Shown here: positions 22,036 through 63,957 of the stretch, in pieces
Position numbering within the stretch: the stretch's first letter is position 1
How the letters are laid out: each line of letters begins with the position of its first letter
NCBI RefSeq assembly: GCF_017349355.1
Contig: NZ_JAFMPM010000006.1
Location: 1,860,001 to 1,924,000 of the forward strand
DNA from: Thiothrix fructosivorans
GTDB taxonomy: Bacteria > Pseudomonadota > Gammaproteobacteria > Thiotrichales > Thiotrichaceae
Direction of reading: 5' to 3'
Length of the DNA: 64,000 nucleotides
The notes under the pieces: generated by a model
Told to the model about the DNA's origin: nothing
Databases searched by the model: none
What the model saw: the letters and a program-made list of their open reading frames with translations, nothing else
Position numbers and translations under genes: made by a program

Positions 22036-23415
22036 TTACTTGTGAACGCCCAGCTTTTCGCGCCAGCCTGGGAACAGCTTGTCAGCATCGCCAGGGAATG
22101 ACTCGAATGCGCGAGCAAATTCTTTGTGCTCTTTCGCAAATTCAATCGGGTCTGCGCCCGCTTTCCAGCACTCATAGGATTGACGCAGGGAAATCGCGCC
22201 AGCCGCTGGGCTGTCAATGTGACCGTAAGAACCGCCACCGGACGTGTTGATAACGTTACCGTGACCCAAGTTCTCGAAGAAGCCCGGCAGACGCAGTGCG
22301 TTCATACCGCCAGAGATGATTGGGGTAGTTGGCTTCATACCGTGCCATTTTTGATAGTAGACAGGCCCTTGGCACTCGTCACGTTCAATCATGTACGCGA
22401 TGATTTTGTCATCGGAACCGCCTTCCATTTTGCCGAAGCCCATTGTGCCGACGTGGATACCGGAAGCACCTTGCAGACGCGACATTTTCGCCAATACAAA
22501 CGCCGTGTAACCACGCTTGGAAGACGGGGAAGTGATCGCGCCGTGACCAGCACGGTGATAGTGCAGGTACTGGTTAGGGTACTGGCGACGTGCGGTAGTG
22601 ATCATGCCAGGGCCGCCAACGTAACCGTCAACCAGGAATGCTACTTTGTCCGCATCTGGGCCAAACGCTTCGAGGATGAAATCAGCACGAGCGCACATTT
22701 CGTAATGGTCGTCAGCGGTGATGTTCGCAGAGAACAGTTTCGCTTGACCGGTTTCGTCTTGCGCACGTTTCATTGCGTCGTATACGAGTGGGTAAACTTT
22801 TTTCGCTGGGCAGAATACTTGGTTGCCTTGTGGTTCATCGTTCTTGATGAAGTCGCCGCCGAGCCAGAATTGGTAAGCCGCGTGAGCGAATGGCTCAGGG
22901 CGCAGACCCAGCTTAGGCTTGATGATAGTACCAGCGATGTAACCACCGTTGTTAACATCACGACCCAGAATACGCCACATGTCAGAAATGTCTTTCGCAG
23001 GACCATCGAACAACTGGATAGCGCGTGGTGGCATGAAGAAGTCGATCATTTGCGCGTGTTCAATGTCGCCCATGCCTTGGTTGTTACCGATAACCAGTGT
23101 CAGGAAAGACACCAGCATCATACGGCCATCCGTGATGTTGCGGTCGAACAGGTCAATCGGGTAAGCGATACGCATGTCTTCAGTGGCTTCGTCGATGTGG
23201 TACACCAGCGCGTCAACGCCCTTGGTGAAATCATCGGTGGTGCAAACTTCAACGTTAGTACCGGTGGAAGATTCTGCTGCCAAATGCGCAGCCGCTTCCA
23301 GATAGCCATAGCCAGCTTTTGGCTTCATTTTGTAGGCAACCAGAATGTGCCCACCACCTGCGATCAGGTCTTCTTCTTTCAGGCTCAGATCCGCGTAACG
23401 TCCAGATTGGTCCAT
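22036..23415 (-). CDS. cbbM: Form II ribulose-1,5-bisphosphate carboxylase/oxygenase
   Basis: 459 aa from ATG 23415 (GAGGAGAG upstream), normal for form II. Fixes CO2 onto RuBP. Active-site features: carbamylated-Lys region [28 protein letters not shown], loop 6 [11 protein letters not shown], and phosphate-binding SGGMNAL and TSGGGSYGH. Form II enzymes need no small subunit and suit high CO2/low O2. Head of cbbM-cbbQ-cbbO, with cbbR divergent upstream. Confidence 0.98.
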
Positions 23416-34491: not shown

Positions 34492-35910
34492 TTACTTGTG
34501 AGCAACGTCAAGTTTGTCAACGGTGTCGAACTCGAACTTGATTTCCTTCCAGGTTTCCATCGCGATTTTCAGCTCTGGGCTTGATTTTGCCGCGTTGGTG
34601 AGGATGTCCTTACCTTCTTTTTCCAGTTCACGCCCGCAGTTACGCGCTTCGACGCACGCCTCAACCGCAACACGGTTGGCCGCAGCACCAGCCGCATTGC
34701 CCCACGGATGCCCTAATGTGCCGCCGCCGAATTGCAGTACCGAATCATCGCCGAAGATGTTAACCAGCGCAGGCATGTGCCAGACGTGGATACCACCCGA
34801 TGCAACAGGGATGACACCCGGCATTGAACCCCAATCTTGGTCGAAGAAAATACCGCGTGAACGGTCTTCTTTGATGAAGGAATCACGCATGATGTCGATC
34901 CAGCCCAAGGTGGCTTCGCGGTCGCCTTCCAGCTTGCCGACAACCGTGCCGGAGTGCAGGTGGTCGCCGCCGGACAAACGCAATACTTTAGTCAGTACGC
35001 GGAAGTGGATGCCGTGGTGCGGGTTGCGGTCGAGTACCGCGTGCATTGCACGGTGGATGTGCAACAACATGCCGTTGTTTTGGCACCATTGCGCCAATTG
35101 GGTGTTCGCTGACAGACCGCCGGTCAGGTAGTCGTGCATGATGATGGGTGCACCGATTTCTTTCGCGTATTCGGCACGGCGCATCATTTCATCAGACGTA
35201 GGCGCAGTAACGTTCAGGTAGTGACCTTTGCGCTCGCCGGTTTCCGCTTCCGCTTTGTGGATCGCTTCCATTACGAAGTCAAAACGGTGTCTCCAGCGCA
35301 TGAATGGCTGTGAGTTTACGTTTTCGTCGTCTTTGGTGAAGTCCAAACCACCGCGCAGACCTTCGTAGCACGCACGACCGTAGTTCTTCGCAGACAGACC
35401 CAACTTCGGCTTGATGGTGCAACCCAACAGTGGACGACCGTATTTGTTCATAATGTCGCGTTCGACTTGGATACCTTGCGGTGGACCATTACACGTCATG
35501 ACGTAAGCGATGGGGAAGCGGATGTCTTCCAAACGCAGCGCACGCAGGGCTTTGAAACCAAACACGTTACCCACCAAGGAAGTCAGTACGTTAACCACTG
35601 AACCTTCTTCAAACAGGTCAATCGGGTATGCCACGAATGCGTAGAAGCACGTGTCATCGCCGGGTACGTCTTCAATCGCGTAAGCACGCCCTTTGTAGTA
35701 GTCCAGATCGGTTAACAGGTCAGTCCAAACCGTTGTCCATGTACCTGTGGAAGATTCTGCCGCCACCGCTGCTGCCACTTCTTCACGCGGTACGCCCGCC
35801 TGAGGAGTGATTTTGAAGCAAGCGAGGATGTCGGTGTCTTTCGGGGTGTAATCCGGCATCCAGTAAGTTTCGCGGTATTCTTTAACACCTGCGCTGTAAT
35901 TCTTTGCCAT
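34492..35910 (-). CDS. cbbL: Form I RuBisCO large subunit
   Basis: 472 aa from ATG 35910. Active-site regions: [17 protein letters not shown], carbamylated Lys in [34 protein letters not shown] (loop 6 Lys), and [12 protein letters not shown]. The cbbLS-orf-cbbQ-cbbO order without csoS genes points to a cytoplasmic form IAq enzyme. First gene of its operon, with cbbR divergent. Confidence 0.98.
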
Positions 35911-54623: not shown

Positions 54624-56167
54624 TGCCAGAGATTGCGCTTCCTCTCCATCCGCTCGATGAGCAGCTTGCCCGCTTGCTGAAACGGCTGGAGGGGGGCGCA
54701 AGTCCGCGTGGTTTGACGGCATTGGTACGGCATGTGAGTGCGCGTACCCGCGAAGGCGTGATTGCTGTGCCGTTAGCGGCTGCGCCAGCGGTGGATGTGG
54801 AGGTATTAATCGCCTCTGCTGTGGTGGGGCGCGAGGGGGATTACAAGCCGTTGATCCTCAGCGATACTCACGCATGGCTATACCGCTATTGGTCGTATGA
54901 ACAGCGGCTGGCAACGTGTATCCAAACTCGTATGCATGACGATACCTTGCTGATTATTTCCGGTGGCCCTGGTACGGGCAAAACCACCCAAGTCACGGGG
55001 ATGCTGGCTGACTTTATCGCGGGTGGTATTGCTCCGCAGCGTATTTTGCTGGCAGCCCCCACGGGCAAAGCGGCAATGCGGATGCAGGAATCCATTCGTG
55101 ATACGCGCCAACGCGAGAACATCACTTGCCCAATGCCGGAGCAAGCCAGCACCTTGCACCGCTTGCTGGGTTTTATGCCTAACCGTGTCGGGTTTCGCCA
55201 TCACGCCCACAATCCTTTGCCTGCCGATGTGGTGATTGTCGATGAAGCGTCGATGATCGACATTTCCATGATGACGCATTTGTTTGAAGCCGTGCCGCCT
55301 CGCGCCAAGCTGATTTTGCTGGGTGATAAAGATCAATTGGCATCGGTGGAAACGGGGTCGATTTTCCGCGATTTATGCAGTGGTAATGCCTTGGCAAAGC
55401 AGATGTTGTTGCTGCAAACCAGCTACCGTTTTACCGACACCGATGGCATTGGACAGCTTGCTCAAGCGATTCGTGCGGATGATGAAATACGTTTGCTGGA
55501 GGTGTTGGCGTCGCCTGCTTTTCCCGATGTGATCTTGGATGAATCACCGACGGGGTTGGATGCGGAATGGGTGCGTGCGGGGTGGCAAGCGTATGTGGCA
55601 GCGGTCAAGACGGGTGAGATGGACGCTATTTTTACCGCGTTTAACGCCTTACGCATCCTCACGCCGTTACGGCAAGGGCGGCAGGGTGTGGAGTCGTTGA
55701 ATGCGTGGGTGGATGGGATGATGCAACGCTTGCTGCCGCTGCATGAGGGGGCGCAACGTCCGTGGTACGTCGGCAGACCGGTGATGGTGACGCAAAACGA
55801 TTACCGTCAGAATTTATTCAATGGCGATATTGGGATTGTGTTGCCGAATGAGGCGGGGGAATTGCGGGTGTGGTTTCCGGCGGGGGCGGCGGGGGAATAC
55901 CGTGCGGTTGCGCCAATCCGCTTGCCTGCGCATGAAACGGCGTGGGCAATGACCATCCATAAAAGCCAAGGCTCGGAATTTACGCGGGTGTTGCTGATTT
56001 TGCCGGAAGCAGAAGACTTACCGTTGCTAGGGCGCGAATTGCTGTATACGGCAGTGACACGGGCAAAGCAAGGTATTCACATCCTCGCCAGCCGCGCTAT
56101 GTTAGCGAAGGCGTTACACACGGTAACGCCACCGTCGTCACAATTACAGGAACGCTTGCTGGCTTAG
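54623..56167 (+). CDS. recD: RecD-type helicase (exodeoxyribonuclease V alpha subunit)
   Basis: 514 aa SF1 helicase. Walker A GGPGTGKTTQVTGM, ATPTGKAAMRM-like APTGKAAMRMQE, DEASMIDISMM, GDKDQLASVETGSIF, and C-terminal MTIHKSQGSEFTRV with TAVTRAK. In RecBCD it is the fast 5'-3' motor. Slightly shorter than E. coli RecD (608 aa), and recB/recC are not adjacent in this window; coupled to galU instead. Confidence 0.88.
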   Translation: MPEIALPLHPLDEQLARLLKRLEGGASPRGLTALVRHVSARTREGVIAVPLAAAPAVDVEVLIASAVVGREGDYKPLILSDTHAWLYRYWSYEQRLATCIQTRMHDDTLLIISGGPGTGKTTQVTGMLADFIAGGIAPQRILLAAPTGKAAMRMQESIRDTRQRENITCPMPEQASTLHRLLGFMPNRVGFRHHAHNPLPADVVIVDEASMIDISMMTHLFEAVPPRAKLILLGDKDQLASVETGSIFRDLCSGNALAKQMLLLQTSYRFTDTDGIGQLAQAIRADDEIRLLEVLASPAFPDVILDESPTGLDAEWVRAGWQAYVAAVKTGEMDAIFTAFNALRILTPLRQGRQGVESLNAWVDGMMQRLLPLHEGAQRPWYVGRPVMVTQNDYRQNLFNGDIGIVLPNEAGELRVWFPAGAAGEYRAVAPIRLPAHETAWAMTIHKSQGSEFTRVLLILPEAEDLPLLGRELLYTAVTRAKQGIHILASRAMLAKALHTVTPPSSQLQERLLA

Positions 56168-57909
56168 GCCGTTTTCGCGCCCGGTAATTTGGCACATTCA
56201 TGGAAAATGCGTTTGTCGCAGGTCGCGCAAATGCTGTGATCCAGCCGCTTGGTCAGCGATTTGAGTGCGGCTTCTTTGCTGGAAAATACATTGCCCTGAC
56301 CAAATTCTTCCACAAAATCAATCCTGTCCATAAAATCGTAGACCTTGTTTTTTGCGCCTTGCAAATACAAGCCGCCACCAAGAGATTTCAGGCGTTTGGC
56401 TTCCTGAAGCAGCATTTCTGCCCCGGCAAGATCAATGAAATTGATGCTGTCACCCACAATGAGTACATGCTTGATATGCTGGCGTTCGGCAATGCAAGCC
56501 AGTTCGCGCTGCACTTTGTCGAGTGAACCGAAGTAGATCGACATATCCACCCGCACTAATTTCAATTGCGGACATTCTTTCAGCCCGTATTCGCTGACTT
56601 CGGCAAATTTGTGGCGCGGCTCGGCAGGGTTTGGGGCTAAATCCACAATGTTTGGCATCGACGTGCGCATCAGGAAAATGATCAACGACAGCAATACGCC
56701 CATGTAAATGGCAAATTCCAGCTCCATGAACAGTGTGGCGAAAAACGTGGTAGCAAGGATCGAGGTTTCGGTTTTGCTGCTGTGCAAAATGTGCTTGATA
56801 TGGTGAAAGTCGATCAGGTTGTAGGCTACCAACATAATGATGCCGCCCATTGCTGCGACGGGTAAATATGCCGCTAAGGGTGCAACCAGCAACACGATGA
56901 TTGCCAGCAAAATCGCCGCAAATACCGCCGACAACGGGGTTCTTGCCCCGGCAGAATAGTTAATCCCCGAACGGGTAAACGAGCCAGAACCGGCGTAGCT
57001 GGATAAGAAACTGCCTGCAATATTCGACAACCCTTGCCCGACGAATTCCTGATTGCCATCCAGACGTTGCTGCGATTTGGTGGCAATCGAGCGGGCAATC
57101 GACACCGCTTCAATCAGCCCCAGCAAGGCGACCGCGAACGCCCCGGACGCGAGTTGTTTCAACGAGGATAAGGACAAATCGGGCATGGACAGTGGCGGCA
57201 ATTGCCCTTTGATTTCACCCACGTAAGTGAGACCGTGCGCTGCACCGCCGATGGCGATACTGGCAAGGCTACCCATGACCATGCCAAATAACAAATGCGG
57301 CATTTTGGGCAGGAAGCGTTTTAGCAGTAACGCTGACAGCATGGTGAAACCGGCAATTGCCAGAATGTACAGGTTGATTGCACCGATACCGACACCCACA
57401 TCCACCCATGTATGCAGAAACGATTCGCCTTTGGGAATGGGGATACCGGTCACGTATTTGATTTGGCTGGTGGCAATCAGAATCGCTGCCCCAGCCGTAA
57501 AGCCGATCACCACAGTATGCGATACAAAGTTAACCAACATGCCCAAGCGCATTAAGCCGAATACCAACTGATAAACCCCTGCGAGGAAGGTCAGCGTTAG
57601 CACCATTTGAATAAATTGCTCCGACCCCGGCTCGGCATAACGGCTGATGGTGGAAAATACTACCAAGGAAATCGCAGTGGTAGGGCCGGATACCAAATGC
57701 AGCGACGAGCCAAACAAGCCCGCAATAATCGGCGTGACCATTGCCGTGTACAAACCGTATTCCGGCGGCAAGCCTGCAATCGCCGCAAACGCCACGCCTT
57801 GTGGTAACACCACGACTGCGCCAGTAAGTCCCGCAAAGAAATCGGCTTTGAACGTATTAAAATTGACTAGACCTAGCCAAGTAAGAAAGGGGAAGAAAAA
57901 TTGTTTCAT
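56164..57909 (-). CDS. SulP-family anion transporter with STAS domain (1)
   Basis: 581 aa, ~12 membrane segments then a cytosolic STAS domain (IKHVLIVGDSINFIDLAGAE). SulP signature DFFAGLTGAVVVLPQGVAFA and GPTTAISLVVFS. The family moves sulfate or bicarbonate; closeness to two carbonic anhydrases favours bicarbonate, but this is inference. Cys-rich tail DHSICATCDKRIFHECAKLP. Downstream of and homologous to the next SulP gene. Confidence 0.88.
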   Translation of the reverse strand: MKQFFFPFLTWLGLVNFNTFKADFFAGLTGAVVVLPQGVAFAAIAGLPPEYGLYTAMVTPIIAGLFGSSLHLVSGPTTAISLVVFSTISRYAEPGSEQFIQMVLTLTFLAGVYQLVFGLMRLGMLVNFVSHTVVIGFTAGAAILIATSQIKYVTGIPIPKGESFLHTWVDVGVGIGAINLYILAIAGFTMLSALLLKRFLPKMPHLLFGMVMGSLASIAIGGAAHGLTYVGEIKGQLPPLSMPDLSLSSLKQLASGAFAVALLGLIEAVSIARSIATKSQQRLDGNQEFVGQGLSNIAGSFLSSYAGSGSFTRSGINYSAGARTPLSAVFAAILLAIIVLLVAPLAAYLPVAAMGGIIMLVAYNLIDFHHIKHILHSSKTETSILATTFFATLFMELEFAIYMGVLLSLIIFLMRTSMPNIVDLAPNPAEPRHKFAEVSEYGLKECPQLKLVRVDMSIYFGSLDKVQRELACIAERQHIKHVLIVGDSINFIDLAGAEMLLQEAKRLKSLGGGLYLQGAKNKVYDFMDRIDFVEEFGQGNVFSSKEAALKSLTKRLDHSICATCDKRIFHECAKLPGAKTA

Positions 57910-58074: not shown

Positions 58075-59856
58075 CTATGGCTTAGTGTGAGTCGCCACCG
58101 TACCAGAACATTCTTTGAACAAGTGAGTGGTACAACCTTCACACAGGCTCTTATCCAGCTTTTGGTAAATGGCGTGGATCGCGGCGGACTTGGACTGGAA
58201 CACATTGCGTGAACCTTCCTTGTCGAAACATTCGCAGGCTTCTAACGCATCCCACAAACCCTCCTTGACATTGATCAGGTACAAATTGCCGCCGTCTGCC
58301 TGCCGTTGTTTGGCTTCCTTGTACAGCGCGTGGCTGCCCTGCAAATCGGCAAAGTTGATGCCTTCGCAAATCACCGCCAAGTGCTTTTGCTGTGGGTGTT
58401 CTGCACGGATTTTGCCGAACTTTTCTTCCATGTGATTCACCGAGCCGAAGAATAGCGAGCCTTCAATACCCACGAAGCGCAATTGCTGGCATTGGGGTAA
58501 ATCCGGGTCAGTGGAAAACGCATGGTTAGGCAAATTCTTGTCGGGCGTGCGGGTCAGGATGCGCGGTTTGGACACTTTCTCCAGATACAACACCAAGGAC
58601 AGCATCACGCCAAGGAAAATCGCAAACTCCAGATCAAGGAACAACGCACTAAAGAACGTGACGGCTAATACCACCGTTTCGCGTGTCGAGAAGCTGATAA
58701 TCTCACGGATTTCATGCCAGTCGATCAAGCCCCAAGCCACCAAAAACAGTACGCCAGCCATGGCTGCTTTGGGTAAATACGCAGCGTAAGGCGCAACCAG
58801 CACCACCACAAATATCAGCAATAATCCTGCAAATACTGCCGCCATCGGGGTTTTCGCGCCGGATTCGTAATTCACCCCCGTGCGGTTAAACGAGCCGGTC
58901 GAGACATAACCGGAAAAAAACGACCCGGCAAGATTGGATAAGCCTTGCCCAATAAATTCCTGATTGCCATTGATGCTATAGCCGCCGCGTGCCGCCATTG
59001 CCCGCCCAATAGATACCGCTTCGGTCAAGGCAAACAGCGTGACTGCCAAGGCAGCGGGCGCCAGCATTTTAATATTTTCCAGCGTCAACACGGGCGCGGA
59101 CAGCGGCGGGAAAGAATCCGGCAACGCACCGACCGTTGCGATATGGGTCATATCGATGCCCAACCACGCATTTAAGCCGACACTGAGCAAGCTACCAACC
59201 AGAATAGCCACCACCATGTAAGGCACTCGTTTCAACCAGCGTTTAGTCGCCATGCCACTGAGTAAGGTGACGACAGCAATTAAGACTGCATAAGCGTTAA
59301 TGCCGTCGAGATGCTGGGTAAACCGGAATAACAGTTCGGTCAAATTACCACCGTTATCCATGTCCACCCCGAAAAAATACTTCAATTGCTTGGCAGCAAT
59401 CAAAATAGCGGCCCCAGCGGTGAAGCCGACCACGACAGCGTGCGAAATGAAATTCACCAACGCCCCCATCCGTGCCAGCCCCAGAACCAATTCAAACAAG
59501 CCCACCATGAACGTCAGGGTCAAGGCCAGCGTGACATAATCCGGGCTACCGGGTACGGCATGAATAGATAATGCCGAAAACAGCACCACCGAAGCCGCCG
59601 TAGTCGGCCCTGACACCAAATGCCGTGACGAACCAAACAGCGCCGCAATAATCGCGGGAATCATTCCAGCGTATAAGCCGTATTGCGGCGGCATCCCCGC
59701 GATGGTGGCGAAGGCCACGCCTTGCGGCAGCACCACGACAGCCCCAGTTAAACCGGCAATGAAATCAGCCCGCAGGTCACGTCCATTGATTTTAGGCAAC
59801 CAGTTGAGGAATGGCATTAGCCATGTCCAGTAAGAAGGAAGTGCTTGAACGCTCAT
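58075..59856 (-). CDS. SulP-family anion transporter with STAS domain (2)
   Basis: 593 aa from ATG 59856 (a GTG three codons earlier overlaps the upstream ORF). DFIAGLTGAVVVLPQGVAFA and GPTTAASVVLFSALS in the first half, then ~12 membrane segments, and a C-terminal STAS domain (LAVICEGINFADLQGSHALY). Tail with Cys cluster LCEGCTTHLFKECSG like SulP 1. Sulfate or bicarbonate uptake; context suggests bicarbonate. Confidence 0.88.
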   Translation of the reverse strand: MSVQALPSYWTWLMPFLNWLPKINGRDLRADFIAGLTGAVVVLPQGVAFATIAGMPPQYGLYAGMIPAIIAALFGSSRHLVSGPTTAASVVLFSALSIHAVPGSPDYVTLALTLTFMVGLFELVLGLARMGALVNFISHAVVVGFTAGAAILIAAKQLKYFFGVDMDNGGNLTELLFRFTQHLDGINAYAVLIAVVTLLSGMATKRWLKRVPYMVVAILVGSLLSVGLNAWLGIDMTHIATVGALPDSFPPLSAPVLTLENIKMLAPAALAVTLFALTEAVSIGRAMAARGGYSINGNQEFIGQGLSNLAGSFFSGYVSTGSFNRTGVNYESGAKTPMAAVFAGLLLIFVVVLVAPYAAYLPKAAMAGVLFLVAWGLIDWHEIREIISFSTRETVVLAVTFFSALFLDLEFAIFLGVMLSLVLYLEKVSKPRILTRTPDKNLPNHAFSTDPDLPQCQQLRFVGIEGSLFFGSVNHMEEKFGKIRAEHPQQKHLAVICEGINFADLQGSHALYKEAKQRQADGGNLYLINVKEGLWDALEACECFDKEGSRNVFQSKSAAIHAIYQKLDKSLCEGCTTHLFKECSGTVATHTKP

Positions 59857-59861
59857 GATGC

Positions 59862-60062
59862 TCACTTGGCGTGTAAGGCCATATTAGGGAAAGTTGGAGT
59901 GGCGGTGTTGGCAGTGGCTTGCACGGCTTGTTTTTCGCGTTCAATTTCGGTGAGTACCCGTTGCAGGTTGGCTTTTTTCTCTTGCGTCGTCAGCATTTCG
60001 CCTTCGTATTGCATCGCCAGCCCGTTAAGGATGGTTTTCAGTGCAGCCGATAAATGGTTCAT
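59862..60062 (-). CDS. 66-aa protein upstream of and overlapping SulP
   Basis: MNHLSAALKTILNGLAMQYE then EGEMLTTQEKKANLQRVLTE, EIEREKQAV: soluble and helical, mostly predicted alpha. GAAGGA-like RBS upstream. Its end is adjacent to (or overlaps) the SulP start, so the two are likely coupled. Not a family I recognise; may be a SulP partner. Confidence 0.55.
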   Translation of the reverse strand: MNHLSAALKTILNGLAMQYEGEMLTTQEKKANLQRVLTEIEREKQAVQATANTATPTFPNMALHAK

Positions 60063-60342
60063 GAGAAGGATTTCCTTGGTTAAGAACAGTATTTGCTAGT
60101 TCTATAGCAAGGAGCGTGCCAGTATTTTGTTGATGGTTAACTAGCTGTTATTTAAGAATAAAAATGAAATATTATCAGTGACGTAAATGTATCTGCTGTT
60201 ACAGTCTGAAACGGTATGACTCTTCCTTTTGGGCAGGCTGTATAACCTTATTTTTGTTGGTAGCATGGCGGCGCGACGGGAGGTTTAATCTTAAGCAAGT
60301 CGCACGTAACGGCTGTATTTTTACTGGATGAGGAGAGTTTGC
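60063..60342. other. 280-bp regulatory gap between SulP operon and iota-CA gene
   Basis: No gene. AT-rich, containing TTACA-GTC-TGAAA (60199-60211), one of a set of TTTCA-N3-TGNAA-like boxes in this cluster, and the promoters of the two divergent units. A GAGGAGAG at 60330-60337 is the ribosome binding site of the following gene. Confidence 0.5.
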
Positions 60343-60963
60343 ATGATGATGAAACAAGGTTTATGGGCAATGTGCTTACTGAGTGGCATGAGTTTTGTGG
60401 TGGGTAATGTTGCGCTGGCTGAATCCAGTACTCCCACTGCCCCCGTTGCGCCAGTGGCTTCCGTGGCAACACCTGCTTGCGCCCCTGCGGTTGCACCGAT
60501 TACTGAGCAGGATGTGCAAGCAGCGCAGCAAGCGTGGGCAGACGGTATTGTCACGATTGGCAAAACCTATCAGGACAAAGGCGATTACTCAGCCGCCGCG
60601 ACCCAACTGCTTGACCAACTTTATGCGTTTGATGAGGGTGAAGTACTGTTCAAGCCCACCAAAGCGGCTGAAGATCAATTCCGTGGCAGTAAAGACGAAG
60701 CACTGTCTTATTTTGTGAAAGGCAAAGAAACCGAAGATCACGGTTTTGCCCTGCAACCTTGGTCAAAAGTGCGTTTTGAAAATGAAGCGGTTGCAATCAA
60801 CCAAGACACGGCGGAAGCAATGGGTAACTATTACTTCACCGATGCTACAACTGGCAAGGAAACCAAAGTGGAATATACCTTTGGTTACAAGCGTGCCAAG
60901 ACGGATGGGCATTTGGCCATTTTCCTGCATCACTCTTCATTGCCTTATAACCCCGAACATTAA
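60343..60963 (+). CDS. Candidate periplasmic iota-class carbonic anhydrase
   Basis: 206 aa from the first of three ATGs at 60343. Signal peptide (MCLLSGMSFVVGNVALA) then a Pro/Ala/Val-rich linker. The rest fits the SnoaL/CaMKII-association fold of COG4337 proteins: EGEVLFKPTKAAEDQFRG, DEALSYFVKGKETEDHGFAL, VEYTFGYKRAKTDGHLAIFL, and HHSSLPYNP at the end, the His-His-Ser-Ser motif of iota-carbonic anhydrases (LCIP63, BteCA). Would hydrate CO2 in the periplasm. Convergent with a beta-carbonic anhydrase gene. No metal-binding motif of other CA classes. Confidence 0.7.
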   Translation: MMMKQGLWAMCLLSGMSFVVGNVALAESSTPTAPVAPVASVATPACAPAVAPITEQDVQAAQQAWADGIVTIGKTYQDKGDYSAAATQLLDQLYAFDEGEVLFKPTKAAEDQFRGSKDEALSYFVKGKETEDHGFALQPWSKVRFENEAVAINQDTAEAMGNYYFTDATTGKETKVEYTFGYKRAKTDGHLAIFLHHSSLPYNPEH

Positions 60964-61024: not shown

Positions 61025-61660
61025 TTACGGCACGTCAAAAAACTCGACTTTACCCGTCTCTAACGAATATTCCGCACTCACCACCAGCAAACCTTCGTTA
61101 GCAATCAAGTTTTCCAGAATCTCCGAACCGTGGCGCAAGTGACTGGTCGCGGCACGAATATTGGCACGGACTGCGTGTTTCATCAGGGCTTCGGGATCAT
61201 CGCGCAACGGCGTTTCCATTAAGGTGGCAACGGCGGGGGCAATGCGTTCGACGATAGAGCGTTGGTTGCGGGACGGACTTTGCAGGTTATGGCGTAATTC
61301 CTCGATGGTGGCATGAACTGCGCCACATTGCGTATGCCCCAGCACCACCACCAGCCGCGTGTTGTATTGGGTGGCGGCGAATTCCACGCTGCCGATTTGT
61401 GAAGGCGCAACAATATTCCCCGCGACCCGAATCACAAACAGCGAGCCGAAACCTTGGTCGAACACCAGTTCCGCCGGAACCCGCGAATCCGAACAGCCCA
61501 GAATAATCGCGAACGGGTTTTGCCCCTCGGTCAGGCTGGCGCGTTGCGTATGACTCAATAAAGTATCCAGACTGCGCACATTGTTGGCAAAACGTTGATT
61601 GCCTTCTTGTAAACGGGCGAGTGCTTCCGCCCCGCTCAAGTTGCTTTGTTTATTTGGCAT
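61025..61660 (-). CDS. can: Beta-class carbonic anhydrase
   Basis: 211 aa. Zinc ligands and catalytic dyad in ILGCSDSRVPAELVFDQG, and His/Cys in VLGHTQCGAVHATIEEL. No clear signal peptide, so cytosolic. Interconverts CO2 and bicarbonate, relevant to RuBisCO supply and to SulP-imported bicarbonate. Convergent with the candidate iota-CA gene. Confidence 0.92.
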   Translation of the reverse strand: MPNKQSNLSGAEALARLQEGNQRFANNVRSLDTLLSHTQRASLTEGQNPFAIILGCSDSRVPAELVFDQGFGSLFVIRVAGNIVAPSQIGSVEFAATQYNTRLVVVLGHTQCGAVHATIEELRHNLQSPSRNQRSIVERIAPAVATLMETPLRDDPEALMKHAVRANIRAATSHLRHGSEILENLIANEGLLVVSAEYSLETGKVEFFDVP

Positions 61661-61785: not shown

Positions 61786-62371
61786 ATGATCAGTATTCAC
61801 CGTAAAATTACTTTCGCGTTTTCTTCACTTGCTGTCTTGGTGGTCGGGGTGGCAGCCTTGGCGTTTCTGGATTTGCTGTTTCTGGAACGTCAAGTCGAGC
61901 AGGGTATCACCATCACCACCTTGGAAACCGCGATACAGGACATGCGTCGTGAGGAAAAAAATCTGTTCCTCTACCAAGACGTGAGTGCGGGTCAGGCAGC
62001 GGATACCTTTGCGGCGACCGCCTTGCAAACCTTGCAGACTTCCCCGCAGACACTCGCAGCAGTGGGCAATGTGATGCAAGTCACGCAATTACAAACCACG
62101 TTACAAACCTACCGCCAGCTATTAGCCAGTCATTTGCAACGTTTGCCTACTGATAGCACGCTGGAAAGCAGTGTTCGTGAACAGGGGCATTTGGCTTCGC
62201 AACTTGCTGAATCGTTAACCTTGCAAGAACGCCGTTTGCTGAACACCGTGCTTGCGGATGCGAAATGGGCGCAAGTACTGGGTGTGGGGATTTTATCCGT
62301 GCTGCTGGTGCTGATTGGCTGGTTGTTGGATCGTTCGGTGATTACCCCGATGAAACGTCTGATGGCAGATC
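61786..62371 (+). pseudogene. HAMP-domain sensor (chemoreceptor or kinase), 5' part, split by IS66
   Basis: Two membrane segments (FAFSSLAVLVVGVAALAFLD and VLGVGILSVLLVLIGWLLD) flank a helical periplasmic sensor region of ~150 residues (DMRREEKNLFLYQDV is typical of the four-helix-bundle type). The following VITPMKRLMAD is the start of a HAMP domain, cut by IS66. The output domain, methyl-accepting or kinase, is beyond the right edge. The open frame to 62394 adds a few IS codons. Confidence 0.85.
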
Positions 62372-63957
62372 GTAAGCGTTCACGCCGTCTGTAGCGGGTT
62401 AGAAGCTAACGGTTGAGCCAAAGGGAAGCGCACCGAGACAGACTTATGAGCCAAGCCTTGTGAGCAAATGTCCCGCATCAATATCGCCATATTCATCCCC
62501 AATTGACGTGCCGTCCCCAGCACGGTCATCACCGTTGGACGGAATCTGTCACCTTGTGCCGACTGGCTGGCAAAGCTGGTTTTCCGCCATTGCACATACG
62601 GCCTGATCACCCGCTCGGCACGGTTATTGGTGAGGGGAATGCGACTATCCTTGAGGAAAGTCCAACACATCGCCTCATCCTTGAGCAAATGCTTGCATTG
62701 GTTGGTGGTGCGTTTGCAATTCTCCAATGCCAAGCCTTTGTTGAGCGTGGCTTGGAAGCTGCGGCGCAAGCGGAGTATCCGCCGTTGGTAGCGAGCGGCT
62801 TCATCGGGTTGTTGTTGCCAGCGGTGATGGGTGCGGACGGTGGTATAGGCGAGTAACAACAGGCGTTTGCCCACGCTTCCCCCTTCGCCGCAACGCCCCG
62901 CCATTTTGCGGAAGTGGCGGATCAAATGCGCCCAACACAGTTGCCGCCGTTCGGGTGGGACGTTGCCGTAACCACTGAAGTGGTCGGTGACCAGATAGCC
63001 AGTAAAGCTGCCCAACAAGGCATCGGCGGCGGCCTTGCCGCGTGAGTAATGGGTCATGAAGTAACTCACGCTATGGTCAGCCAATGCCCATAACCAGTAA
63101 GTGTTCGTACCGCGATAATGGCGGGTTTCATCGGCGTGGCATACCGCTTGTCCGCGTACATACTGACCTACTTGACGGTATAGCGGCCCCATCCACGGAA
63201 TGGCTTTGCCTTGCGCCTTGCTGATAGCCCCAGTGCTAAAACGCACGTGGCACATTTCCCACAACAGAACCTGGATCTGGCGCATGGATAGGCGGAACTG
63301 ACCACTCAAAATCACCACCCAGGCGATCACGCCTGCACCCATTTGACCGCTCGGCACCCAATCCGGCCACTGGCTGTGGTGCTTGATGCCGCAGGATTGG
63401 CAAACACCCTGATAAAACTGGTGTTCCGTCACGTCCGGTGGCGGCGGTGGAGCAATATCCGTGACCTGATGGCGGTAAGGGTTTCCCCAATCAATCGCCA
63501 CTGCCCCACCACAGGAACAGGTGCTTTCAGGGAAATACTGTTCGGTACGGGTCACTTGTTCGGGAGGATATAACGCCCGTTCGTGACGCGGATGCCCCGG
63601 TTGCCCACCGTGTGGGCGGCTACTCCCCTTGCGTTTGGGACGCAACGCCCGTTGTTCCGGGCTGTCGGAGGACGGCGCTTTGGAACTGTTACGCGAACTG
63701 CTGCCGAATTTGGCAACCAGTTCTTCCAGTTGTTTTTGCAGCATTTCGACTTGTTGCTCCAGCACCGCCACCCGTGCCACTTGCTTCTCCAACTCAGTTA
63801 TCCGTTCCTGTTGGCGCACGATCACCTGATGCGCTTCATCCAGTGTCGTGGGTAAGGTAGGAACGGCGGCTAACAAGGGGTAAATGACTCGCTGTTGGGA
63901 TGGGGTGAATTTACTACAAGTTCGCTGGAATGCCTAATAGAGGGCGTGAACGCTTAC
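62372..63957 (-). mobile_element. IS66-family element (single transposase, ISBst12-like)
   Basis: 1586 bp with terminal inverted repeat GTAAGCGTTCACGCC at the left and its complement GGCGTGAACGCTTAC at the right. The flanks share TGGCAGATC (62363-62371 and 63958-63966), a target duplication of 8-9 bp. No tnpA/tnpB accessory genes are present, as in the ISBst12 subgroup. Confidence 0.92.
62380..63876 (-). CDS. IS66-family transposase
   Basis: 498 aa. N-terminal coiled coil (RQQERITELEKQVARVAVLE), then a basic linker (SSRNSSKAPSSDSPEQRA), a zinc-finger-like CSCGGA ... CQSCG, and a DDE domain: Asp in VCHADETRHYRGT, Asp in LVTDHFSGYGN, Glu in NNRAERVIRPYVQWRKTSFA. Intact and apparently recent. 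Confidence 0.94.
   Translation of the reverse strand: MLAAVPTLPTTLDEAHQVIVRQQERITELEKQVARVAVLEQQVEMLQKQLEELVAKFGSSSRNSSKAPSSDSPEQRALRPKRKGSSRPHGGQPGHPRHERALYPPEQVTRTEQYFPESTCSCGGAVAIDWGNPYRHQVTDIAPPPPPDVTEHQFYQGVCQSCGIKHHSQWPDWVPSGQMGAGVIAWVVILSGQFRLSMRQIQVLLWEMCHVRFSTGAISKAQGKAIPWMGPLYRQVGQYVRGQAVCHADETRHYRGTNTYWLWALADHSVSYFMTHYSRGKAAADALLGSFTGYLVTDHFSGYGNVPPERRQLCWAHLIRHFRKMAGRCGEGGSVGKRLLLLAYTTVRTHHRWQQQPDEAARYQRRILRLRRSFQATLNKGLALENCKRTTNQCKHLLKDEAMCWTFLKDSRIPLTNNRAERVIRPYVQWRKTSFASQSAQGDRFRPTVMTVLGTARQLGMNMAILMRDICSQGLAHKSVSVRFPLAQPLASNPLQTA

Follow-up and report, generated by a model that had tools for sequence, protein, structure and literature searches.

The DNA analysed here, referred to as the window, is a stretch of 64,000 nucleotides from the genome of Thiothrix fructosivorans (G000). 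Towards its right-hand end it carries a gene, at positions 60343..60963 of the plus strand, that we assign to the COG4337-type iota-carbonic anhydrases (iota-CAs), with a product that is probably secreted. The reading frame is intact, being open from 60328 and closed by the stop codon at 60961-60963. The ATG at 60343 was chosen as the start in preference to 60328 because conservation with related proteins begins there and a GAGGAG-like site lies before it; the resulting protein has 206 amino acids. Its N-terminus, MMMKQGLWAMCLLSGMSFVVGNVALA followed by ESS, resembles a type I signal peptide, with a mean Kyte-Doolittle score of 1.3 over residues 5-24, which is a crude hydropathy value only. The putative signal peptide (residues ~1-26) is followed by an Ala/Pro-rich linker (~27-50; window positions 60420-60495), the length of which varies between species by TAPVAP-like units, and then by an NTF2-like domain (~51-205). 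The export-signal-like N-terminus points to the periplasm as the location of this protein; bacterial COG4337-type iota-CAs usually begin with a signal for export.

The original prediction placed the gene beside a convergent beta-carbonic anhydrase (beta-CA) gene, close to two SulP transporters and in company with two RuBisCOs, and all of these are present. The beta-CA (61025..61660, minus strand; Pfam Pro_CA, E 1.3e-36) lacks an apparent signal peptide and is the only Pro_CA match in the genome, and the stop codons of the two carbonic anhydrase (CA) genes are 61 bp apart. On the other side and divergent from the iota-CA lies SulP2, an anion transporter of the SulP/SLC26 family (58075..59865, minus strand; Pfam Sulfate_transp, E 1e-95), and next to it a second member of the SulP family, SulP1 (56164..57909, minus strand; Sulfate_transp, E 4.7e-97, with a STAS domain). 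Domain matches locate the RuBisCO large-subunit genes at 22096-22989 and 34549-35475 (minus strand), both within the window. A sigma-54 promoter, CTGGCACG-N4-TTGCT, is found at 60106..60122 on the minus strand without mismatch, and is the sole sigma-54 match in the window when up to one mismatch is allowed (0.68 matches being expected at that laxity). It reads away from the iota-CA, towards SulP2 and a conserved open reading frame of 66 amino acids (59862..60062, minus strand) that overlaps the SulP2 start; this frame is defined by a six-genome alignment and its translation, and has no Pfam match at E 0.001. Beyond the beta-CA is a sensor kinase gene whose 5' part (61786..62394, plus strand) is separated by an IS66-type transposase gene (62380-63876, minus strand) from the 3' part (63930-64847), which extends past the end of the window. 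A regulator of the NtrC type follows outside the window (64769-66208; sigma-54 interaction domain, E 3.6e-68).

Assignment of the gene product to the iota-CAs had rested on a SnoaL-like fold pattern and on the motif blocks FKPT, SYFV, GFALQPW and HHSSLPY, every one of which occurs in the protein, and both profile and structural comparisons bear it out. The NCBIfam model for metal-independent carbonic anhydrases, NF047901, matches nearly the full length of the protein with an E-value of 9.4e-37. The score of 126.4 bits does not reach the curated cut-off of 350 bits, which was passed in none of 369 class-sample, 398 phylum-sample and 14 control genomes, despite strong matches in 13 of the class sample (E 1e-10) and 15 of the phylum sample (E 1e-15 or better, G000 included); the cut-off therefore appears to mark a narrow subgroup. 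A phmmer search of the PDB gave the solved iota-CAs 7c5x (E 1.1e-122 over three repeats; best single stretch 3.4e-42) and 7c5v (E 1.9e-30) as the sole strong matches. No significant family was returned by Pfam (best E 0.12), so Pfam alone would leave the protein hypothetical. One link proved to be wrong: the blocks had been associated with diatom LCIP63, which according to excerpts of PMC8132391 belongs to COG4875, the blocks themselves being features of COG4337.

The same source, in the part available, describes the COG4337 protein all2909 as inactive when Ala replaces T106, Y124, H197 or S199. An alignment of 105 rows, made up of 102 domains from our loci and three PDB stretches, shows that the window protein has each of these four residues as well as F138. 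All four are kept in 101 of the rows, the exceptions being L044, L052b and L060, with Gln for H197, and L080, with Ser for T106. On a contig of Richelia (L052, 5847-7482) two iota-CA genes stand in tandem, and in the second the catalytic His is replaced by Gln. The AlphaFold2 model of the window protein (mean pLDDT 88.7, pTM 0.75) contains the cone-shaped alpha+beta barrel of the solved iota-CAs, and its NTF2-like domain superposes on them. Foldseek ranks 7c5x_B first (E 3.6e-19), and comparison by VIA gives Z 25.9 and an rmsd of 1.3 Å over 156 residues with 7c5y_B and Z 25.2 with 7c5v, before falling to 15.4 for 3h51. The view that the product is an iota-CA of the COG4337, or metal-free, type is thus well supported by sequence and model. 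The gene adds one more member to an established enzyme class.

Among characterised carbonic anhydrases, the closest relative is the COG4337 iota-CA Bn86287 of Bigelowiella natans (7c5x, 7c5y), which shares the fold and all catalytic residues with the window protein and is 57% and 51% identical to it in domains 1 and 3, respectively. Both have Tyr at the position of the non-essential Lys180. Bn86287 consists of three repeats and is targeted to the plastid (PMC8132391, in part), whereas the window protein is a single-domain protein with a putative signal peptide of bacterial type. In all2909 from Anabaena sp. PCC 7120 (7c5v, 7c5w) we find the same architecture of a single domain behind an N-terminal leader, with the same catalytic residues, although identity is 46% and Lys180 of all2909 is Tyr in the window protein. 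The COG4875-type iota-CAs, such as diatom LCIP63 and the Burkholderia BteCA-iota, have in common with it the NTF2-like fold and a C-terminal HHSS motif. They belong to another COG, however, and their solved relative 3h51 is similar in fold only, the sequence match being not significant (phmmer, E 0.22). A further iota-CA of a sulfur-oxidising autotroph is the carboxysomal enzyme of Thiomicrospira (PMC12628692, excerpt), from which the window copy differs by its export-signal-like start and by its occurrence in a genome without a match to carboxysome shell proteins. As a search of the T. fructosivorans genome found no BMC shell gene, we dropped a carboxysomal role for the window copy.

The arrangement around the gene was compared in 16 genomes of the genus; searches at the level of the order and of the family gave an identical set of 63 genomes. 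Six of the 16 possess a window-type iota-CA (G000, G049, G050, G059, G060 and G061), and SulP2 is directly upstream and divergent in all six, with SulP1 following SulP2 in each except G050. In G000, G059, G060 and G061 the iota-CA is followed by the convergent beta-CA, the sensor kinase and the NtrC-type regulator. The kinase is missing from the cluster of G049, where the regulator adjoins the beta-CA. G050 has the kinase directly after the iota-CA and the beta-CA behind SulP2, so that the beta-CA is not a constant neighbour. G062 keeps the order of kinase, beta-CA and SulP2 and has no iota-CA there; its spacer measures 466 bp as against 1159-1257 bp elsewhere, which means that the site exists both with and without the gene. 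The sigma-54 core is identical in all six genomes that could be aligned (G000, G049, G059, G060, G061 and G062), and a perfect promoter of SulP2 is present in five of the six genomes with a window-type iota-CA; the loci of G050, G056 and G057 gave no match to the exact pattern. It is possible that the adjacent two-component system of the NtrC type serves this promoter. IS66 splits the kinase in G000, leaving a 5' part of 202 amino acids compared with 488 in G062, G059, G060 and G061, and the G049 cluster lacks the kinase. Two of the six genomes thus have no complete regulatory pair, and the case for the regulatory part of the model is weaker for it.

Outside the genus, the neighbours of iota-CA genes fall mostly into clusters confined to a single clade (e.g. 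Sphingomonadaceae and Latescibacterota), which we read as vertical synteny, and the largest cluster is a sensor-kinase superfamily. A SulP gene lies within 4 kb of the iota-CA in five of 89 such loci: divergently in Halothiobacillus (L030) and Mariniphaga (L095), immediately 5' of it and co-oriented, with a gap of 21 nt, in two Flavobacteriales (L096 and L104), and convergently in a member of the Bacteroidota (L100). An additional SulP fragment is located at the edge of L013. Since L096 and L104 are close kin, the association represents at most four lineages. No SulP was seen within 4 kb in the other 84 loci, 3 kb on both sides being available in only 55 of the 89. This link is suggestive only.

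We consider it likely that the window iota-CA catalyses metal-independent hydration of CO2 in the periplasm and provides bicarbonate to SulP2, with the beta-CA and RuBisCO acting downstream. As proposed for the solved relatives, the hydroxyl groups of Thr (FKPT) and Tyr (SYFV) would deprotonate the water molecule that attacks CO2, while CO2 would be held near the Phe of GFAL. The bicarbonate formed may then become available to the divergently encoded SulP2, and the presumably cytosolic beta-CA would interconvert bicarbonate and CO2 for RuBisCO, which in this organism is probably located outside carboxysomes. The conserved sigma-54 promoter would control SulP2 and not the iota-CA. In Rhodopseudomonas palustris, an autotroph that likewise lacks carboxysomes, a periplasmic alpha-carbonic anhydrase (alpha-CA) supports the supply of dissolved inorganic carbon (DIC), according to the part of PMC10880623 available.

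The transporters allow another reading of the same enzyme. Both SulP2 and SulP1 score above the cut-off of the general sulP model TIGR00815, and neither attains that of the BicA model NF050096 (880 bits; 185.0 bits for SulP2 and 199.6 bits for SulP1). Moreover, the best solved relatives of SulP2 in the PDB are SLC26 and sulfate-transporter proteins, and the genus oxidises sulfur. The main task of the iota-CA might accordingly be pH and sulfate balance, periplasmic bicarbonate serving as the counter-ion in a sulfate/bicarbonate exchange by SulP2 that exports sulfate arising from sulfur oxidation. We regard this as unlikely in view of the beta-CA in the same neighbourhood and the two RuBisCO genes within 40 kb. 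In addition, a SulP encoded beside carboxysome genes in T. pelophila supports accumulation of DIC in Escherichia coli (PMC12628692, excerpt); a second T. pelophila SulP gave no rescue of growth in the same study. It is highly improbable that the protein lacks enzymatic activity or has some other specialised role, being an NTF2/SnoaL superfamily protein that simply resembles an iota-CA, as might be argued from the many NTF2-like proteins that share its fold at Z 13-15 and from a score of 126 rather than 350 bits with NF047901, given that it retains all catalytic residues and the identities listed above to the assayed Bn86287 (57/51%) and to all2909 (46%), that the iota-CA structures outscore the next relative by ~10 Z units, and that the NF047901 cut-off is reached by none of the 398 phylum-sample genomes, though 15 of them match at E 1e-15 or better.

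The zinc-dependent alpha-CA (PF00194) is encoded by six of the 16 genomes of the genus (G051, G052, G054, G057, G058 and G062) and a COG4337 iota-CA by seven; none has both and three have neither, while beta-CA (PF00484) is found in 13. This exclusion has a two-sided Fisher p-value of 0.011, or 0.034 when the iota-CA count is restricted to secreted copies (six genomes). It is weakened by shared ancestry, since the TrpF tree offers only 2-3 independent contrasts, which are opposite in direction or neutral and none of which is significant. G062, in which the site is present without the iota-CA, carries an alpha-CA. A secreted COG4337 iota-CA is absent from ten of the 16 genomes, and four of these (G048, G053, G055 and G056) also have no match to alpha-CA, so members of the genus can do without a periplasmic enzyme from either family. 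The simplest reading of this pattern, which it suggests, is that alpha-CA and iota-CA are alternatives for one periplasmic job and that replacement has occurred; in T. fructosivorans the iota-CA seems to take the place held by the zinc alpha-CA in other species of the genus.

Carbonic anhydrases of the iota class were also encountered in other settings. Two strains of Chromatium okenii and C. weissei encode an iota-CA with a lipobox-like signal inside a complex I operon, between nuoM and nuoN and on the same strand (L041 4283-8013, L045 4292-7963 and L054 4316-7982; nuoM and nuoN were named by model for L041 only). CA activity linked to NADH dehydrogenase occurs in plants with other CA classes. 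It is also described for cyanobacteria, again with other classes, in excerpts of PMC10880623. Ten genomes of the genus contain BMC genes, and in six of these (G048, G049, G053, G055, G059 and G062) a match to TIGR02246 lies close to shell genes, for example at L136 17832-18332 and L125 1366-1866 in G048 and at L140 2509-3009 in G059. The protein of G048, which is encoded in a cluster with csoSCA, ends in HHHSS and has 3h51 as its closest PDB entry (E 1.2e-26), which makes it a candidate iota-CA of the COG4875 type; a carboxysomal iota-CA has been reported for Thiomicrospira (PMC12628692, in part). A COG4337 gene and a TIGR02246 match are found together in four genomes, namely G048, G049, G059 and, with a match below the cut-off, G050, which runs against the reported rarity of such coexistence.

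The genome of T. fructosivorans contains three iota-CA genes, namely the window copy, a second copy (L003 1321-1989) and a fusion (L002). The second copy also has an export-signal-like start and is situated behind a Pfam-tested thioredoxin-2-like gene (L003 824-1258). Genes similar in sequence to this neighbour occur beside the beta-CA in G051, G052, G056 and G057 (L129, L130, L133 and L134), so that the thioredoxin-2-like gene is a recurrent partner of CA genes of either class. In the third gene (L002 868-1983, on G000:C8) the coding sequences of the phosphoribosylanthranilate isomerase (PRAI) TrpF and of an iota-CA are fused in frame, the product comprising TrpF (residues 1-207) and an iota-CA domain (211-366) without a signal peptide. 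The TrpF part scores 253.7 bits with NF002298 (cut-off 215) and is above the cut-off of PF00697. This fusion is present in four of the 16 genomes, G000, G048, G059 and G061 (L002, L009, L010 and L011), in each of which it is the only PRAI match, and the other 12 encode an unfused TrpF. The CA active-site residues are retained in the fusion proteins, and dN/dS (NG86, six pairs) ranges from 0.07 to 0.14 in the TrpF half and from 0.12 to 0.22 in the CA half, which indicates purifying selection on both. Because the structure model of the fusion has a pTM of 0.55 and drew on no more than four TrpF rows, we read nothing into how its two domains are placed relative to each other.

Phylogenetic analysis of 97 iota-CA domains, carried out by a quick method with SH-aLRT values only, groups the fusion domains in one clade (100), with the second secreted copy, L003, as its closest neighbour (84, a value without a star). 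Both belong to a clade of 17 rows (92), which they share with the window-type copies and with six domains from other genera, Halothiobacillus, Thiomonas and Desulfotignum being examples. On the TrpF tree the fusion has a patchy distribution, with three changes. Alternative tails are seen at the 3' end of trpF (L119, L115 and L114), a similar tail of 36 residues being shared by G049 and G062, whereas the tail of G057 is like the fusion linker. This patchiness together with the alternative tails makes loss, gain or exchange at this end all possible. The tail of the G057 TrpF, GVRQADYLAVHPP, resembles the linker GVRLANYLAIHP and is perhaps a relic of a lost fusion; when traces of the CA domain were sought by tblastn downstream of unfused trpF genes (17 loci), the only correctly placed hint was a match of 17 residues in G057 (E 0.076). 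Among loci L001-L105 there is no further example of TrpF beside an iota-CA domain, the set from relatives covering 80 of the 134 confirmed loci, and iota-CA open frames in the phylum sample, apart from those of T. fructosivorans itself, are at most 265 amino acids long, too short for a fusion of this kind.

TrpF does not produce CO2; the next enzyme, TrpC, does. The CO2 released by TrpC is the only chemical link on offer between the fused halves, and such a link is speculative. The CA domain possibly takes up this CO2, or it possibly acts as a general cytosolic carbonic anhydrase. In G048 no match was found to alpha- or beta-CA, the two classes searched, and the carboxysomal CsoSCA is present. 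We regard as evenly balanced the proposal that four Thiothrix genomes encode a bifunctional cytosolic protein combining TrpF with a metal-free, CO2-hydrating iota-CA whose expression would go along with tryptophan synthesis, in addition to a periplasmic copy standing in for the zinc alpha-CA. In the available part of PMC8132391, COG4337 genes of prokaryotes are said to code for one domain each; measured against this statement, a bacterial COG4337 protein with two domains is new, and in the open-licence literature that we searched no paper on a TrpF-carbonic anhydrase fusion was found.

With the window gene, the metal-free type of carbonic anhydrase gains a probable function in the periplasm of a sulfur-oxidising autotroph, next to a transporter. 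The genus also presents a natural experiment, in that among 16 genomes the holders of a zinc alpha-CA lack a COG4337 iota-CA and vice versa, and one species (G062) offers the same site without the iota-CA gene. It is the TrpF fusion, and not the window gene, that is the surprising and new element of this genome; if the proposal is true, the fusion represents a metal-free anhydrase built into a biosynthetic enzyme.
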